45,275 nt of DNA from a virus. Within the stretch, counting starts at the first letter, position 1. Each line of letters starts with the position of its first letter. Location of the stretch: the IMG/VR virus record IMGVR_UViG_3300028840_003477, positions 1 to 45,275 of that record, one strand, 5' to 3'. The notes beneath the pieces were generated by a model, which ran no database searches, was not told the origin of the DNA, and saw only the letters and a list, made by a program, of their open reading frames with translations. The position numbers and the translations under genes are program-made. Positions 22,176 to 31,380 of the stretch are shown one piece after another.

Positions 22176-23651
22176 ATGTCGGGCGCATCGATTTCATCGA
22201 TCATCGGGAAGGGCGCAAAGCGGTTAGACGCCGCAGAGCGTTCGGAGTTGGTAGAATGCTACGAGCACTTCCACGCGATGGGGAACGAGTGGCTGCGCCG
22301 ACAGATCATCGATAACAATCGCATCGACATCTTAGCGGTAGAGATATTGGGCTATCAAGTTGAGCCCTTTCATCTTGAGCTAATGCGCTACCAATTCGTT
22401 CACCCGGACAACATCCAGCTAGTCTTTCGCGGCGCCGGGAAATCAACGATTTGTACCGTCACGAAATCGATTCATTTGCTCCTCAAGAATCCCGACCTCC
22501 GCATCCTCATCGCGTCGAAGACGACCTCCAATGCGGAGGCGTTTTTGAAAGAGATCAAGGGGCACTTCGAATACAACGAACGCCTTGCGGAAGTTTTTGG
22601 ACTCTACTACGACCCACGGCGTGTAGCGAAGTGGGACAACAAAGAGATAGAAGTGCTCCCAAGAAAGACGCATACGAAGGAAGCGAGCATCACGTGCGTG
22701 GGCGTCGAAGGGACCATCGTTAGCAAGCACTACGACGTCATCATCGCGGATGACCTCGTTGATGAGGATAACTCTCGCACGCGGCATATGCGAGACAAGA
22801 CCAAGACTTGGTATTATCAAACGCTTGATCCGACCTTAGAACCGCCCGATGATACCGTGGAGCATCGAGGCGAGTATCACCGCCTGGGAACGCGCTACCA
22901 CTACGACGATTTGTATGGGCACCTCATCGCGAACGAATTGAGCGAGCATCATCACATTATTCCGTCGCTATCTCCGGAAGGCCGCAGCCCATGGCCCGAG
23001 AAATACCCGCCCGAATGGTTCGATGAGAAGCGCAAGAAGTCGGGACTCATCATCTTCAACGCGCAGTACCAATGCGACACGGAGGCGATGAAAGGCGAGG
23101 TGTTCCGCTACGACGATTGTCAGTTGATAGAACCGAGTAACATCCCAGGAGGTCTTCGCATCTTCATGGGAATCGATTTGGCGATTAGCCAACAGCAATC
23201 CGCCGATCATTTTTCCATCGTCGTTATCGGGATGGACGAGGACAAAAACCGTTACGTGCTAGACTACTACGATGACCAACTCCGGTTCGGGGACCAGACG
23301 AAAAAGATCATCGCATTTTACGAGAAGTGGGACCCGATTCGAGCGTGTATAGAGACGAACGCTTACCAGCAAGCGCAATATCAAAATTTGAAGGACGAAG
23401 ACAAGGACATCCGCCTCACGCCGGTTAACCAGGATAAGGACAAAGTGTCGCGGGCGTGGAAGTTAACGTCGTTGTTCGAAGAGGGAAAAATGTTTTTCAA
23501 AAAGGGAGGGAGCATCCATCTATTCATCGAACAGTTGGTGCTATTCCCTAGTTACCGATATGACGACCTCTTCGACGCCTTGGATTTGGCGGTGAGAGCT
23601 AGCAAGTTCAGGAAGCGAAAGAAGAGGCGCAAGGAACCGGGATTGATTTAG
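22176..23651 (+). CDS. terL: Terminase large subunit
   Basis: The DNA-packaging motor of the prohead: ATPase plus nuclease that cuts concatemeric DNA. Walker A is FRGAGKST (residues 84-91), preceded by the adenine-binding region EPFHLELMRY. Walker B is DVIIADD (187-193). The RNase-H-like nuclease begins with IFMGIDLAIS (Asp 334), with a second acidic position ACIETNAY and the C-terminal RYDDLFDALDLAV as third. At 491 residues it is a normal length. Weak SD (GAGG) before ATG 22176. Partners are the portal directly downstream and the putative small subunit at 18481. The terminase type (cos or headful) cannot be read from this sequence. Confidence 0.92.
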   Translation: MSGASISSIIGKGAKRLDAAERSELVECYEHFHAMGNEWLRRQIIDNNRIDILAVEILGYQVEPFHLELMRYQFVHPDNIQLVFRGAGKSTICTVTKSIHLLLKNPDLRILIASKTTSNAEAFLKEIKGHFEYNERLAEVFGLYYDPRRVAKWDNKEIEVLPRKTHTKEASITCVGVEGTIVSKHYDVIIADDLVDEDNSRTRHMRDKTKTWYYQTLDPTLEPPDDTVEHRGEYHRLGTRYHYDDLYGHLIANELSEHHHIIPSLSPEGRSPWPEKYPPEWFDEKRKKSGLIIFNAQYQCDTEAMKGEVFRYDDCQLIEPSNIPGGLRIFMGIDLAISQQQSADHFSIVVIGMDEDKNRYVLDYYDDQLRFGDQTKKIIAFYEKWDPIRACIETNAYQQAQYQNLKDEDKDIRLTPVNQDKDKVSRAWKLTSLFEEGKMFFKKGGSIHLFIEQLVLFPSYRYDDLFDALDLAVRASKFRKRKKRRKEPGLI

Positions 23652-23660
23652 GAGGGAGCC

Positions 23661-25511
23661 ATGGCGAGAAAAGCGAAACCGGCCGTTGCGAGGATGGCAG
23701 AGGAGACGGCGGCAAGCGGTTCCTCCACGAACCAAAAAGCAATGCGTACCATCGGTGCGAGGATCATCGAGATAGACGCGCGCAAAGCGGCGCAAGCGGA
23801 ACCGGGGAAGTCAACACGGATTCCCGATGATCCCATCTACGCTTTGACCGAAGAGGGGAAGCTCATTGAGCCGCCATACGACCTCTTCACGCTTGCGCTC
23901 CTTACCGAGAATAGCACGGAGTTGAATCAGTGCGTCGAAGCTATGGAGACGAACATCGAAGCGTTCGGCCATCGTTTCGTTCCTCGCGTCAAAGGAACGC
24001 CCGACAACCCGCTGCCGAAGGACGTCCAGAAAGCGGTCAACAAGGAATTCGTGAAGTTGGAAAACTTCTTCGCGTACGCAACGCGGGAATCCTTCGTCAA
24101 ATTCCGTCGCAAGCTCCGGAAGGATTTGGAGACGACCGGCACCGGCTATTTCGAGGTGGTTCGGAACGCGGCCGGGGACATCCAATCCTTCGCTCATCTC
24201 CCCAGCTATCAAATGCGGTTATCTCGTCTTGAAGATAAGTTGGTGAAGACGAAGAGGAAGATTCTGGAGCTTCAAGAGGACGGCAGCGTGAAGGTCGTGG
24301 AGATTTCGGAATGGAGGCGGTTCCGAAAGTACGCCCAGTCCAGGACGGCGAGACGGCGCAACTTGGAAATCTCGCAAGGCTACAAGGGCATCCGGTGGTA
24401 CAAAGAATTCGGAGATGAACGCATCTACGATAACACGACCGGAGACTTGGCGAAGGAAGGCGAAACGCTACCCATCGACCGCCAAGCAAATGAGGTCATC
24501 TATCTCGATTTGTACTCCCCGCGTACTCCATACGGACTTCCCCGGTTTGTCGGAAACTTGCTTAGCATTTTCGGTGATCGCGCCTCCGAAGAAATCAACT
24601 ACATCACCTTCCGCAATAACAATATTCCGTCGATGGTCATCGCGGTTTCGAACGGGCAGCTGACGGAAGGAACGATTGAGCGCATCGAGAGTTTCGTTGA
24701 GTCGCAAATTCAAGGGTCGGACAACTATAGCAAATTCCTAATCCTGGAAGCGGAAGGGATGGTGGAAGGCGAGGACGGGTCGCAGATCAAAATCGACATC
24801 AAGCCTTTAACCGAAGAGCAACATCACGACGCGCTATTCCAAAAGTACAGTTCCAATAATCAAGACAAAATCCGTCGCGCATTTCGGTTGCCGCCCATCT
24901 TTGTCGGTCGGAGCGACGATTACACGAGGGCAACGGCCGAATCTAGCCGGCAGTTGGCCGATGAGCAGGTCTTCGCTCCGGAGCGTGACGAATTCGACTC
25001 CATCATCAATCGTTTCCTCTTCCCGGATATGGGAATCATTTACCACAAGTTCCGTTCGAATTCTCCCAACACTACCGATAACCAAGAGTTGGTAAAAATC
25101 CTCGCAGGAGCTGAGAAGACGGGCGGGATGACGCCCCGAATCGCCCGCTTGCTGTTGGAGGATATTCTAGGCATGCCTCTTCCCGAGTTCCAGGAAGGGT
25201 ATGACCCGGACGTCCCGTTCAGTCTAACGATGGCGGAGGCGGTGAAGAACAAAGCCGACGCATCGGAACCGGGACAGCAGGTCACGGCGCTCAAATCCCT
25301 CTTCCGGGAGCTATATGACGACGAAGAAGAAGCCGATGCGATGTACGAAGCCGCATGCGAGAAATGCGGGAACCTCGTCCACGTTTCGAAGCTGGATACC
25401 AGCGGTGATCCGTTGGTCGATCATCTCCTGGAAGTACACAAGCGCATCGAGTCGAAGTGGGCCGAAGAAGTCGGTGGCGAAGAAGACGACGATCACTCCC
25501 ACGAAGGCTAA
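23661..25511 (+). CDS. Portal protein (PBSX-like) with C-terminal zinc finger
   Basis: The dodecameric head vertex through which DNA passes. Residues about 250-480 show the PBSX/SPP1-like portal core: VGNLLSIFGDRASEEINYIT, FRNNNIPSMVIAVSNGQLTE, and KIRRAFRLPPIFVGRSDDYT, then ATAESSRQLADEQVF. SD GGAGGGAG. Length 616. Unusual is the C-terminal extension: C566, C569, H588 and H593 (CEKC...HLLEVH) form a C2H2-like zinc finger, followed by an acidic and His tail. It may contact the next protein or DNA during assembly. The preceding gene is the terminase. Confidence 0.88.
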   Translation: MARKAKPAVARMAEETAASGSSTNQKAMRTIGARIIEIDARKAAQAEPGKSTRIPDDPIYALTEEGKLIEPPYDLFTLALLTENSTELNQCVEAMETNIEAFGHRFVPRVKGTPDNPLPKDVQKAVNKEFVKLENFFAYATRESFVKFRRKLRKDLETTGTGYFEVVRNAAGDIQSFAHLPSYQMRLSRLEDKLVKTKRKILELQEDGSVKVVEISEWRRFRKYAQSRTARRRNLEISQGYKGIRWYKEFGDERIYDNTTGDLAKEGETLPIDRQANEVIYLDLYSPRTPYGLPRFVGNLLSIFGDRASEEINYITFRNNNIPSMVIAVSNGQLTEGTIERIESFVESQIQGSDNYSKFLILEAEGMVEGEDGSQIKIDIKPLTEEQHHDALFQKYSSNNQDKIRRAFRLPPIFVGRSDDYTRATAESSRQLADEQVFAPERDEFDSIINRFLFPDMGIIYHKFRSNSPNTTDNQELVKILAGAEKTGGMTPRIARLLLEDILGMPLPEFQEGYDPDVPFSLTMAEAVKNKADASEPGQQVTALKSLFRELYDDEEEADAMYEAACEKCGNLVHVSKLDTSGDPLVDHLLEVHKRIESKWAEEVGGEEDDDHSHEG

Positions 25512-25517
25512 CCGGCG

Positions 25518-28193
25518 TTGTCGCTTGAGCGCACATACGCTGGTCTCGTACTAGCAGACTCCATCATCGCGAAAGCGGCGCGCATCTCCGAAGTCTCGCA
25601 GATGGGAAGAGTCGAGAAGCGCGCACGCGAGTTCATCACGGCCGCTTGGGAACGTCGCGCAAAGCAAGCGACGAAGAAAGCCGCAGCGATGGCGCGGCAG
25701 CTGAAACCGGCTTCGCAAATTGCCGCTGCGGTCAACAAGATCATGGGCGGATGGGCGAAGGAAATTGAGCCGGTGTTCTTGAAGGAGTTTGCGAGCGTCT
25801 ATCGCCTGGGAAGAATCGCGGCGTGGAAGAAAGCAACGCGCCAAACGAAAGCGGAGTTGCGCTACAACACGCCCAAATTCGAAGAGGTGAAGAAAGCGGA
25901 CGTTGCGCAACTGCTCCCAAGTTTCGACCTCATCGACGATGCGGCGGTCGAAGCGTTGGAGAACCAGCAAGTGTTCTGGATAGGAGAGCACTACAAGGAC
26001 AACGTCTCCCCAAGCATCGCCGGTGTAACGAAGGAGACGATGGCGCAAGCCGGTCGCGATGCGCGAGCAGCGGGCAAGGCGATGTCCGAAAAGGTCGCCG
26101 CATCGCTATCGAAAGTGCGAGTGCCGGGCGGGTTCAACGGGAGCGCAAAGCAGTACTTTGAAGGACTCACGGCGAACGCGATGACCGTGGCGAGGGTCCA
26201 CGGCCAGATGCGTAGCTTTATGGACATTGGGATCACGCGCTATTCGATTAGCAATCCCAGCGATCATCGGACCTGTAAGCGTTGCGCCCATATGGAGGGG
26301 AAGGTCTTCACGACGAAGCAGGGCGCCGAGCAGATGGGGAAAGAGCTTGCGGCCGATAGTCCGGAAGAAGTGAAAGCCGCTCATCCGTGGCTAACCGAAA
26401 AGCAAATCAAGGACATCTCCCCGAAAGCAGGACCACAAAAAGGCGCAGCAGGAGCGAAGGACGCAAAAGCGCTCGCAGCGAAGGGCCAAGCACTACCTCC
26501 CTACCACTACCGTTGTCGATGTACCGTCGATATCAGCGATGAGGTAGGGTCGTATGAAAGCCTTGCGCCGTTCGTTGCGCCGAAACCGGGCAAACCGCCC
26601 GTGATGATTCCGCCTATCGAAGCGGTGCGCATAGCCACACCATCGCTGTGGGCCAAAGGATTGGATGCGGCGGAAAAAGAAGCATTCGGCGCTTGGAGTG
26701 GCCAGGATTATTTCTCGATCAAGCTCGTGGATCAGGGCGGCAAGGAAGCCGCCAAGAAATATCCACAGGCCGCCAAACGGTTAAAAGCGATGCGCGAAGC
26801 GTTAGACCGGGCGCCCATTCACCAAGGCAAGGTCTATCGCGGAATGTACGCGATGGACGACGAAGCCATCGCGCCGTTCATCAAAAAGGGAAACATCGTC
26901 CAGCAGGATTCATTGAGCAGTTGGTCGCAGAGTAAAACCGTGGCAAAGGGCGCAGGGGAATTGGCTACGGAAAAGGGCCAGAACTTCCTGATAATGGAAG
27001 TGAAAACTAGCAAGGGCGCCTATGATATTACTCCGGCAACAATCGGCCACGAAAAGGAAGTGCTATTAGAAAAAGGAAAAAAACTGCGCGTCCAAAAAGT
27101 GGTAAAGATCGTTGGCGAAAATTCGATGGGTGAAAAAGTCTCCGGGTATCGCGTTCTGTTTCAAGAAGTCGATGACGCGGCGTTGCCGAAGCTCAAACCG
27201 AAGCCCAAGCCGAAACCGAAGAAGAAACCGAAACCGAAGTTGACCGGCGACGACAAAGTGCTGTTCGATTTGAAAAAGGGCAGCGTGGTCTCTCAACGGA
27301 GAATCGGGCAAGGCGTTAACGGCGCCGAAAGAATGGTTTTGGAAACACCGGACGGCGCAAAGATAGACGCTGTTTGGAAAGCCGCAAAGAACGAAGAGAA
27401 AAAATTGAGGCAGGGAATCAAAGCTGGGTCCTATTATCGGCGTGAGGCCGCTTACTATCGGTTGGATGTAGAGCTAGGAGGGAAGCCGGTTACACCTCCA
27501 ACAATTGCGCGCAACCCTAAGACCGGACAAGGCAGGGGAAGTCTTCAAGCATGGGACAAGAAAGCAAAAGGAATGGACGACGCATTCGGCGGTCCTATTT
27601 ACTTGGATTTGTCGGACGCGCCAAGCGTGCGTCGAACATTTTTGATGGACGTAATTGCGGCGAACGATGATCGACACGGCGGGAATATTCTGTTCAAAGT
27701 AGCGGGCCAAGGGAAGAAAAGAACAATCAAAGTAGTCGCAATTGATAACGGTCTTTCGTTCCCGAAGGGGAACGTGTCGAGATTCCTTTTCCCGCCATCC
27801 ACGGCGGGAGAGAAGTTGATGGCGTTAGACGACGTCAGCATCAAGCAAGTGAAGAAGTTGAAGTTGGAAAACGTGGCCAAGATATTGAAGAAAGAAGGCA
27901 TCGACGAATTGGCCGCGAAGCAAACGTTGATAAGAATAAAAGCGTTACAGAAAAATCCGGAAGTGTTGACAGACGCGCTCAAAAAGAAATTGTTTGATCC
28001 ATTTACGGGTCAGCAAAGGAGCCTGGACAAACTCGACGCTTTCCAGCGAAGGACCAGGGTGAGAGAAACCATGGAAGGATTTTTCAAGGACGCCGCGATG
28101 AGACCGGGCAAAATAGGCGTCATGCCGGATGATCGAAAAGCCATTGATGGAATACTCGACAAGGTTTACAAAAAGTCATCGAAGAGGAATTGA
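25518..28193 (+). CDS. MuF head protein fused to ADP-ribosyltransferase and kinase-like domain
   Basis: Three modules. (1) Residues about 1-345: a MuF/SPP1 gp7-like head morphogenesis domain, with SNPSDHRTCKRCAHMEGKVF and the YHYRCRCTVD end motif; such proteins sit at the portal and can be injected. (2) About 372-552: an R-S-E class ADP-ribosyltransferase, with KVYRGMY (Arg 441), DSLSSWSQS (465-472) and GHEKEVLL (Glu 512, Glu 514). (3) After a Lys/Pro linker (555-575): a PI3/4-kinase or HipA-like fold, with VWKAA (Lys 621), REAAYYRLD (Glu 643), NDDRHGGN (Asp 718, Asn 723) and AIDNGLSF (Asp 743). TTG start at 25518 with a distant AAGG. The 3' half appears lower in G+C than the 5' half, suggesting module gain. 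MuF-ART fusions are known; the added kinase makes this one notable. Whether both domains are active is inference. Confidence 0.85.
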   Translation: MSLERTYAGLVLADSIIAKAARISEVSQMGRVEKRAREFITAAWERRAKQATKKAAAMARQLKPASQIAAAVNKIMGGWAKEIEPVFLKEFASVYRLGRIAAWKKATRQTKAELRYNTPKFEEVKKADVAQLLPSFDLIDDAAVEALENQQVFWIGEHYKDNVSPSIAGVTKETMAQAGRDARAAGKAMSEKVAASLSKVRVPGGFNGSAKQYFEGLTANAMTVARVHGQMRSFMDIGITRYSISNPSDHRTCKRCAHMEGKVFTTKQGAEQMGKELAADSPEEVKAAHPWLTEKQIKDISPKAGPQKGAAGAKDAKALAAKGQALPPYHYRCRCTVDISDEVGSYESLAPFVAPKPGKPPVMIPPIEAVRIATPSLWAKGLDAAEKEAFGAWSGQDYFSIKLVDQGGKEAAKKYPQAAKRLKAMREALDRAPIHQGKVYRGMYAMDDEAIAPFIKKGNIVQQDSLSSWSQSKTVAKGAGELATEKGQNFLIMEVKTSKGAYDITPATIGHEKEVLLEKGKKLRVQKVVKIVGENSMGEKVSGYRVLFQEVDDAALPKLKPKPKPKPKKKPKPKLTGDDKVLFDLKKGSVVSQRRIGQGVNGAERMVLETPDGAKIDAVWKAAKNEEKKLRQGIKAGSYYRREAAYYRLDVELGGKPVTPPTIARNPKTGQGRGSLQAWDKKAKGMDDAFGGPIYLDLSDAPSVRRTFLMDVIAANDDRHGGNILFKVAGQGKKRTIKVVAIDNGLSFPKGNVSRFLFPPSTAGEKLMALDDVSIKQVKKLKLENVAKILKKEGIDELAAKQTLIRIKALQKNPEVLTDALKKKLFDPFTGQQRSLDKLDAFQRRTRVRETMEGFFKDAAMRPGKIGVMPDDRKAIDGILDKVYKKSSKRN

Positions 28194-28542: not shown

Positions 28543-28652
28543 TTTTCTCCGACTTCTAAAAATTCCCCTCTTACACGAACGTCAAATAACTTTCCTATCC
28601 TAACGCAGCAGGGTTATCCTAGTCATCGTACCGTTCCTTGAAAGGGACATCG

Positions 28653-29138
28653 ATGACGAACGCAAAGCGCAGGGCTTTTCCACCGTCCGAAAAAGGCAAA
28701 CCACGGAAGCAGCCCGCATCCGAATCGGCCGCGCCAGCGGAAGACACGGAAAGCAAACTCTACATTCCCATCGCGAAGGCAAATGCGGAGGAGCAGACGG
28801 TCACCGGAGTAGTCCTCCAGCCGGAAGTTACCGACGCACAAGGCGACATCTACTCCGCTGACGTCATCCGCAAGGCGGCGCACAAGTTCCTTTCTAACTA
28901 CAACAAAGCCACGAAGCTAGGCTTACAACACAAGAATTTCAAAAAGCAATTCGACCTCGTGGAATGCTACACGGCGCCTCAATCCCTTATCATCAATGGC
29001 AAAACGATCAAAGAGGGTTCATGGATTATGACCGTCAAGGTCTTGAGCGCCGCTATCTGGAAGAAAGTTAAGAAAGGCGAAATCACCGGCTTTTCCATCG
29101 GCGGAAAAGCGAAGGTGCGGAAGTTAACGCCGCAGTGA
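28653..29138 (+). CDS. Prohead protease-like protein (XkdF family), 161 aa
   Basis: After a basic disordered N-terminus, residues about 45-155 match the XkdF putative serine-protease domain: VTGVVLQPEVTDAQGDIYSA, then GLQHKNF, then GSWIMTVKVLSAAIWKKVKK and GEITGFSIGGKA. Members act in capsid maturation and lie next to scaffold and capsid genes, as here. ATG 28653 has AAAGGGA as SD; the TTG five codons earlier is less likely. It may be a split version, because the scaffold gene that follows begins with a segment (VSLVDSPANEEEF) usual in the same protease family. Confidence 0.8.
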   Translation: MTNAKRRAFPPSEKGKPRKQPASESAAPAEDTESKLYIPIAKANAEEQTVTGVVLQPEVTDAQGDIYSADVIRKAAHKFLSNYNKATKLGLQHKNFKKQFDLVECYTAPQSLIINGKTIKEGSWIMTVKVLSAAIWKKVKKGEITGFSIGGKAKVRKLTPQ

Positions 29139-30183: not shown

Positions 30184-31380
30184 ATGTCCGGTATTTCAAA
30201 TGAGGAACTGGTCGAGAAAGCCGTCATCGTGGCGGATGATCTCGCCAGCGCAGGCAAGCTGAACCCGGCGCAGTCCGACAAGTTCATCGACTATGTCGTG
30301 GACGAGACGGTGCTGAAGAACAACGCCCGTGTCGTGCGGTTCCGTAACGAGTCGCTGGAAATCGACAAAATCGGAATCGGCGCCCGTGCGGCGGTTCCGA
30401 AGTCGGAAGCGGTGGACCCGGGCATCCGGCGCGGGATCAACACGAGCAAGGTCACGCTCACTCCGAGTGAGGTCATGGTTCCCTTCGAAATCGGGGATAA
30501 CTTCCGTGAGCTCAACATCGAAGGCGAGGCGGTGGAGGATCACATCGTTCAGATGTTCGCGAAGCAGATGGCGAACGACGGTGAAGAACTCTTCATCACC
30601 GGGAACAAGCTGGGACCGGCCGTGCTCGAAGGCGACATCCTGGACGGCGGGAGCACGACCCAGTACATCAAGGACTCGTACCTGGCCCTTCAGGACGGGT
30701 GGCAGCTCCTGGGAGACGGCGGGCACATCGTGGACGCGGCGGGCGCGAACATCGGCCTGAGCATCTTCGGGAAGGCGCTGAGGGCGATGCCGACCAAGTT
30801 CCGGAGAAACAAGAAGGCACTCCGCTTCTTCTGCTCTCCCGACCTCGCCCAGCTCTACATGGAGAAACTCTCCACGCGCGCAACGAACGCGGGCGACAAC
30901 GCCGTGGCCGGGATGGGCGTGGCGCCGTTCGGCGTTCCCATCGTCGAAGTTCCTCTCTGGGACTTCCAGTCGAAGGTCGTGGAGCACATCGTCCTGACCG
31001 GAACCGACGTCATCCCGCTGAAGAACGCTCCGGTGTCGAGCGTGGTCGTTCTCCCGAGCAATCTCGGTTCGACTCCCACCACCCCCTACGTGGAAGGGAC
31101 GGACTATCACGAAGACCTCGCCAACGGTACCATCCAGAGGGACGCGGGCGGGTCCATCGGCGCCGGTGCGACGGTGAAGGTCACCTACAGCGCGAATCCG
31201 CAACTGATCCTGACCCACATGAACAACTTCATCGTGGGCATCGGTCGGGACGTTCGCATCGAGAAAGACCGCGACATCTTCAAGGGCGTGAACCAGTACG
31301 CGATCACGGCCAAATGGGCGGTCGAGTTCGAAGAGGACGACGCAATCGTCAAGGTCCGGAACATCGGGACCGGCGTCTGA
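30184..31380 (+). CDS. Major capsid protein (HK97 fold)
   Basis: 398 residues. Start with a very strong SD (CAGGAGGTAAAA). The order of segments fits an HK97-fold capsid protein: NARVVRFRNESLEIDKIGIG (E-loop region), VPFEIGDNFRELNIEGEAVE, ITGNKLGP, ALRAMPTKFRRNKKALRFFC (P-domain helix region), and a C-terminal HMNNFIVGIGRDVRIEKDRD. An insertion at about 285-340 (VSSVVVLPSNLGSTPTTPYV and GTVKV-like repeats of an Ig-like domain) could be surface exposed. A GC hairpin follows. The partners are the scaffold upstream and decoration-like proteins downstream. Confidence 0.9.
   Translation: MSGISNEELVEKAVIVADDLASAGKLNPAQSDKFIDYVVDETVLKNNARVVRFRNESLEIDKIGIGARAAVPKSEAVDPGIRRGINTSKVTLTPSEVMVPFEIGDNFRELNIEGEAVEDHIVQMFAKQMANDGEELFITGNKLGPAVLEGDILDGGSTTQYIKDSYLALQDGWQLLGDGGHIVDAAGANIGLSIFGKALRAMPTKFRRNKKALRFFCSPDLAQLYMEKLSTRATNAGDNAVAGMGVAPFGVPIVEVPLWDFQSKVVEHIVLTGTDVIPLKNAPVSSVVVLPSNLGSTPTTPYVEGTDYHEDLANGTIQRDAGGSIGAGATVKVTYSANPQLILTHMNNFIVGIGRDVRIEKDRDIFKGVNQYAITAKWAVEFEEDDAIVKVRNIGTGV

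Follow-up and report, generated by a model that had tools for sequence, protein, structure and literature searches.

Why might a phage attach two different enzymes to what appears to be a component of its own head? The question is raised by one gene of a 45,275-base IMG/VR virus record, a single uncultivated contig that we analysed at its full length and refer to as the window. A sequence-only reading of this DNA had proposed that the gene encodes a virion MuF protein continued by an ADP-ribosyltransferase (ART) and by a PI3/4K/HipA-like kinase. Profile matches to each module bear out all three and their order (Table 1), the gene is a single uninterrupted frame free of stops, and the residues that had been singled out are numbered correctly: R441, SLSS at 465-468, E512/E514, NDDRHGGN at 716-723, and IDNG at 742-745. 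The position between the portal and prohead protease genes fits the expectation for a virion MuF gene, and the order TerL, portal, MuF fusion, prohead protease, head protein is common to the window and to L001, with the last of these in the window probably being the major head protein. A contractile tail sheath gene is also present on the window contig, and no tRNA genes were found there. Ten ORFs of its left half, scanned against PHROG, gave no clue to the host. Tandem units of about 60 bases (AAAGCTAAAAGACATTTAATGCC...) open the contig, at positions 1-460.

Table 1. The MuF fusion gene of the window, its modules, and neighbouring genes
Feature	Residues	Coordinates	Strand	Evidence or remark
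Whole gene, MuF - ADP-ribosyltransferase - PI4KII-like kinase	891 aa	25518..28193	+	TTG start
MuF minor head (portal-associated) domain	1-345	25518..26552	+	TIGR01641; PHROG head proteins
ADP-ribosyltransferase, R-S-E type, Alt/Vip2 group	about 373-545	26634..27152	+	PF03496 over cut-off; Vip2, Vis in PDB
Pro/Lys linker (KPKPKPKPKKKPKPK)		27180..27242	+	alignment
PI4KII-like kinase with C-terminal helical lobe	576-891	27243..28190	+	PF00454 over cut-off; TIGR03843; AF2 and Foldseek
Small partner protein, candidate immunity protein or inhibitor of the kinase	109 aa	28213..28542	+	homologues beside kinases; reverse search; AF2
Terminase large subunit (TerL; context)		22176..23651	+	phrog_38 E 5.7e-83
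Portal protein (context)		23661..25511	+	PF04860 E 4.5e-17; phrog_12
Prohead protease, XkdF/S78_2 type (context)		28638..29138	+	PF14550 E 1.5e-33
Probable major head protein (context)		30184..31380	+	phrog_1623 virion structural protein E 1e-73

The MuF part is matched by NCBIfam TIGR01641 (SPP1 gp7; E 9.5e-9) and by PHROG head families down to E 1.8e-16, with Pfam PF04233 alone remaining under its cut-off. It contains the motifs CxxC, which is conserved (253-256), and YHYRCRC (329-335), and it is about 53-54% identical to the MuF of L001 and 41% identical to that of L002.

In the ART, the arginine R441 lies within VYRG (439-442), SLSS follows, and the glutamates of E512-x-E514 fall within EKEV. 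When the domain was excised, PF03496 matched it above the curated cut-off (E 3.4e-6), and a two-sequence ART profile searched against the PDB returned Vip2 (E 7.6e-9) and Vis (E 7.4e-6). The AlphaFold2 model of this part, which was computed from the single sequence and has pLDDT values mostly below 60, is too poor to judge the fold. In an alignment with L001, which is devoid of an ART, a similar Pro/Lys stretch directly follows MuF. Because the window ART sits between MuF and the linker, which adjoins MuF directly in L001, the ART reads as a module that was inserted at this Lys/Pro linker.

The kinase carries the predicted catalytic residues K621 (beta-3 Lys), E643 (alpha-C Glu), D718 and N723 (DRHxxN), and D743 (DNG), which are invariant in an alignment of 14 relatives, some rows of which were found by searching for the NDDRH..N loop and IDNG. 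The active sites of both enzymes are intact in relatives, where degeneration would have spoken against the sequence-only reading. PF00454 exceeds its cut-off on the excised domain (E 1.7e-6), and TIGR03843 matches residues 585-810, spanning both lobes (E 9e-9), at a score of 35 bits that is well under the SCO1664 equivalog cut-off of 172.4. A kinase profile searched against the PDB found PI4K2A/2B (E 4e-7). AlphaFold gave a confident kinase fold, with pLDDT above 90 over most of the domain and a helical C-lobe that is likewise predicted at high confidence, and the best Foldseek match of this model is PI4KIIalpha (4hnd, E 2.5e-9). Of the PI3/4K/HipA-like label, the PI4K portion thus stands on fold and profile, and the HipA portion does not, as Pfam returned no HipA family for the window protein. 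From these profiles and the predicted structure, the most fitting description of the kinase is PI4KII-like, with a weaker kinship to HipA.

Is this protein an isolated curiosity? DNA-pattern scans for the catalytic loop, together with an alignment-seeded scan, yielded 18 distinct phages in IMG/VR, the window included, that carry a full-strength family kinase, and these kinases are joined to at least three mutually unlike MuF types. MuF-kinase fusion is a recurrent family. The ART is absent from 16 of the 18, and the pairing of ART with kinase is to that extent dispensable. In L001, MuF is followed directly by a kinase that is 42% identical to that of the window; L002 has a MuF of the window type whose C-terminus is not a kinase, and L005, L006, and L008 have MuF alone. 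On window-type MuF, the C-terminal part therefore varies from none (L005) through peptidase-like (L002), kinase (L001), and ART plus kinase (window) to kinase plus ART (L044). The C-terminus of the L002 protein (L002:4983-6956) bears HEVVHG and looks like a zinc peptidase by eye, with Pfam support absent. The same locus has a terminase ORF of 867 aa (L002:649-3252) with an apparent intein-like insert between QYQC and SGNCDTEAMKGEIF.

A second protein that combines both enzymes is encoded by G020 and G021, where the modules of a 938-aa protein are permuted to MuF-kinase-ART. The two records are identical over 5.2 kb and were counted as one phage; they come from two metagenome datasets, and 100% identity in two independent datasets argues against an assembly artefact. 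The ART of this protein (L044) passes the PF03496 cut-off, is 42% identical to the window ART, and retains the R, S, and ExE residues. In the kinase tree, L056 groups with L067 and not with the window, but the data do not reject a single clade of ART carriers (p-AU 0.17); the ART may have been acquired in one event or in two. Between the end of the ART and the partner gene of L044 lies an ORF of 51 aa that has a good ribosome-binding site (L044:3963-4115), which is possibly linked to the ART. We also considered this ORF as a counterpart of the C-terminal tail of the window partner and set the idea aside, the shuffling result (p 0.035) being too weak.

The sequence-only reading had taken a lower G+C content in the 3′ half of the window gene as support for later gain of the effector part. 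The drop is real, from 58.3% in MuF to 52.7% in the ART and 49.5% in the kinase, but it makes no case for late gain, since the kinase, where G+C is lowest, is what stays constant in the lineage. As evidence for late gain of the kinase, the G+C content was rejected on these grounds: the kinase is common to those window-type MuF relatives that have a full-strength family kinase, and the neighbouring TerL has a similar G+C content (51.9%). Judged by comparison of these relatives, MuF-kinase is the old architecture of the window lineage, with the ART as its varying part.

The window gene is followed after 19 bases by a small gene, outside the coordinates of the fusion, whose homologues adjoin the family kinase wherever the flank is visible, mostly within a few tens of bases and, in L017/L064, on the opposite strand. 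No such homologue was found beside L002 or beside the bare MuF genes. When the partner itself was used to seed a search, nine loci were recovered, and all nine lie on contigs already known as kinase carriers. By this distribution, the small gene belongs to the kinase. Between the close pair L016 and L028, dN/dS is 0.11 for MuF, 0.10 for the kinase, and 0.06 for the partner; kinase and partner are under purifying selection in this pair. The predicted partner fold (bbb-a-bb-a-b) is confident over about residues 1-80 and is unmatched in the PDB and BFVD, the protein has no Pfam or NCBIfam match, and PADLOC gave no match.

Outside phages, two bacterial chromosomal loci (L036 and L039) encode a PI4K-like kinase with an unrelated N-terminus, directly followed by a partner homologue whose homology is weak (E about 1e-4) and is supported by its position. 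The occurrence of the pair across phages and in these two bacterial loci resembles a mobile effector-immunity cassette. The MuF-ART toxin Bxa is antibacterial, and two immunity proteins encoded next to it, Bsi and BAH, neutralise it (PMC11699363); by analogy the pattern of kinase and partner would correspond to an effector with its immunity protein. Next to the window gene we identified no separate immunity gene for the ART, such as one for an ADP-ribosyl hydrolase. In L036:5236-9224 and L039:5227-8766, the kinase and partner are followed by a further 422-aa gene and by one or more small genes arranged in a similar way, which may represent an array of effector-immunity pairs.

Comparison with known systems places this protein nearest to the MuF polymorphic toxins (PMC5576092), which likewise begin with a MuF domain, encoded beside portal and terminase in the packaging module, and have a C-terminal enzyme (an ART in Bxa) that varies between relatives of one MuF type and a small gene directly downstream. 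The window differs in adding a PI4KII-like kinase, which is absent from the text of that study, in having two enzymes in one protein with a partner that tracks the kinase and not the ART, and in belonging to phages with no integrase match. T4 Alt and the MuF-fused Alt/Vip2 ARTs (PMC9503650; phrog_595) share a virion-associated R-S-E ART, and fusion of MuF with ART is known from them, whereas the window family combines ART and kinase, in two orders. Polyvalent proteins (PMC5512222) similarly assemble several effector domains, kinases and ARTs included, in one virion or injected protein, as we presume for the delivery of the window protein; their kinase, however, is a Ser/Thr/Tyr kinase that lacks a C-terminal lobe, whereas that of the window is PI4KII-like with a helical C-lobe. 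PI4KII and SCO1664 (TIGR03843) kinases have the fold and catalytic motifs of the window kinase but neither the fusion to a phage head protein nor the linked small partner. HipA shares the DRHxxN catalytic loop of an atypical kinase; its partner HipB is an HTH protein encoded upstream, whereas the window partner is encoded downstream and matches no Pfam or NCBIfam family, and a HipB-type HTH partner is thus not what is found here.

Tblastn searches of INPHARED, run with the complete protein, with its modules one by one, and with three relatives, gave matches to MuF parts only, apart from one weak kinase match in MT835969, which was set aside because the surrounding ORFs look like an actinobacterial chromosome. 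A full-text literature search, with most subscription journals lying outside its coverage, found no paper that links MuF to a PI4-kinase or a phosphatidylinositol kinase. Already published are fusions of MuF with ART, the small ORFs that follow MuF toxins, and phage proteins with several effectors (PMC5576092, PMC9503650, PMC5512222, PMC11699363). As far as could be seen, what is new is a family of PI4KII-like kinases linked to MuF, the partner gene that constantly accompanies it, and the pair of permuted architectures with ART and kinase.

What, then, might the fusion protein do? We consider it reasonably probable that it is a virion-delivered effector with two enzymes that acts early in infection; for the window protein, virion location, delivery, substrates, and inhibition by the partner are what we infer. 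A portal location for MuF is established in the case of SPP1 gp7, and by extension from it the MuF domain would put the fusion protein at the portal, from which the C-terminal enzymes may enter the cell along with DNA ejection. The ART would then modify arginines of host proteins using NAD, like its Vip2 and T4 Alt relatives, and the kinase would phosphorylate a host component with ATP, both enzymes shifting host transcription or translation, or blocking a defence, before phage gene expression. Until virions are released, the small partner may hold the kinase in an inactive state or shield the producing cell.

A protein is a more probable target of the kinase than a lipid, since phosphatidylinositol is seldom present in bacteria and most of them are without it. 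That the kinase acts instead on phosphoinositides or other lipids of the host membrane would accord with PI4K type II enzymes being the closest solved structures; this seems unlikely to us given that scarcity, and also because proteins of the same PI4KII-like fold, bacterial HipA and plant PI4Kgamma, phosphorylate proteins. A different partition of roles has the kinase working in the producing cell, on the head itself, with phosphorylation of head or portal during assembly, the small gene as an assembly factor, and the ART as a later addition with its own role. The location of the kinase-partner pair inside the head gene cluster and the strong conservation of both genes agree with this, yet the bare-MuF phages and the MuF-peptidase phage L002 manage with neither kinase nor partner, and the kinase also turns up joined to unrelated MuF types and, away from phage heads, in bacterial loci, which makes an assembly role decidedly improbable. 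The idea that the gene is decaying, or is a chimera of metagenome assembly, is conceivable for any single uncultivated contig but deserves next to no credence in view of the uninterrupted frame, the intact active sites, the permuted MuF-kinase-ART protein found identical in two independent datasets, and a partner that stands directly downstream, as in relatives.

The way of life of the phages bears on a further possibility, that the protein is a MuF polymorphic toxin for bacterial competition, in which the enzymes would kill non-lysogens and the small gene would render lysogens immune. The published MuF toxins belong mainly to temperate phages, and have even been described as restricted to them, with a small ORF next in 89.4% (PMC5576092), and kinase records with other MuF types mostly have an integrase and/or a resolvase match (G004, G007, G009, and G024). 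However, seven window-type records (G000, G001, G006, G019, G020, G021, and G023), which span 45-107 kb and are possibly fragments, yielded neither a tyrosine integrase nor a serine resolvase, and this suggests, as a lean, that the window-type phages are lytic. If so, early takeover of the host or anti-defence activity fits better than competition among lysogens, and we regard the competition toxin as rather unlikely for the window protein.

We retain early action by a virion-delivered two-enzyme effector as the preferred reading. Beyond the window, it is conceivable, and we put it forward tentatively, that a broad set of phages, lytic ones included, delivers a PI4KII-like protein kinase that has a dedicated partner gene, that some lineages add an ART in the same polypeptide, such that host proteins would be both phosphorylated and ADP-ribosylated at DNA entry, and that the cassette is shared with bacterial toxin-like loci. 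To our knowledge, virion-delivered ARTs are known and virion-delivered kinases have hardly been described. If the proposal is true, the MuF-linked kinase and its partner would represent a second post-translational tool for phages at infection, and phage action before the first gene is read would become testable by phosphoproteomics. The permuted proteins, MuF-ART-kinase versus MuF-kinase-ART, amount to a natural test of cooperation between the two enzymes.

Several other arrangements were noted along the way. Very large phage proteins encoded at L023:3883-7410 and L024:6216-12017 have a divergent kinase of the window type; ART-like stretches seen in them by eye lack Pfam support and were not counted. 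The MuF-kinase protein of L013:6082-8685 contains a methyltransferase-like stretch (PF13489 E 2.6e-4) inside its MuF part, and that of L021:1690-4104 (minus strand) has a P-loop (AAA_18-like) insert in its N-terminal part. At L018:7162-8814 (minus strand) the order is reversed, with the PI4K-like kinase N-terminal and MuF C-terminal. A phage protein of 1693 aa (L079:80-5158) bears two PI4K-like kinase stretches together with a HExxH-like stretch.
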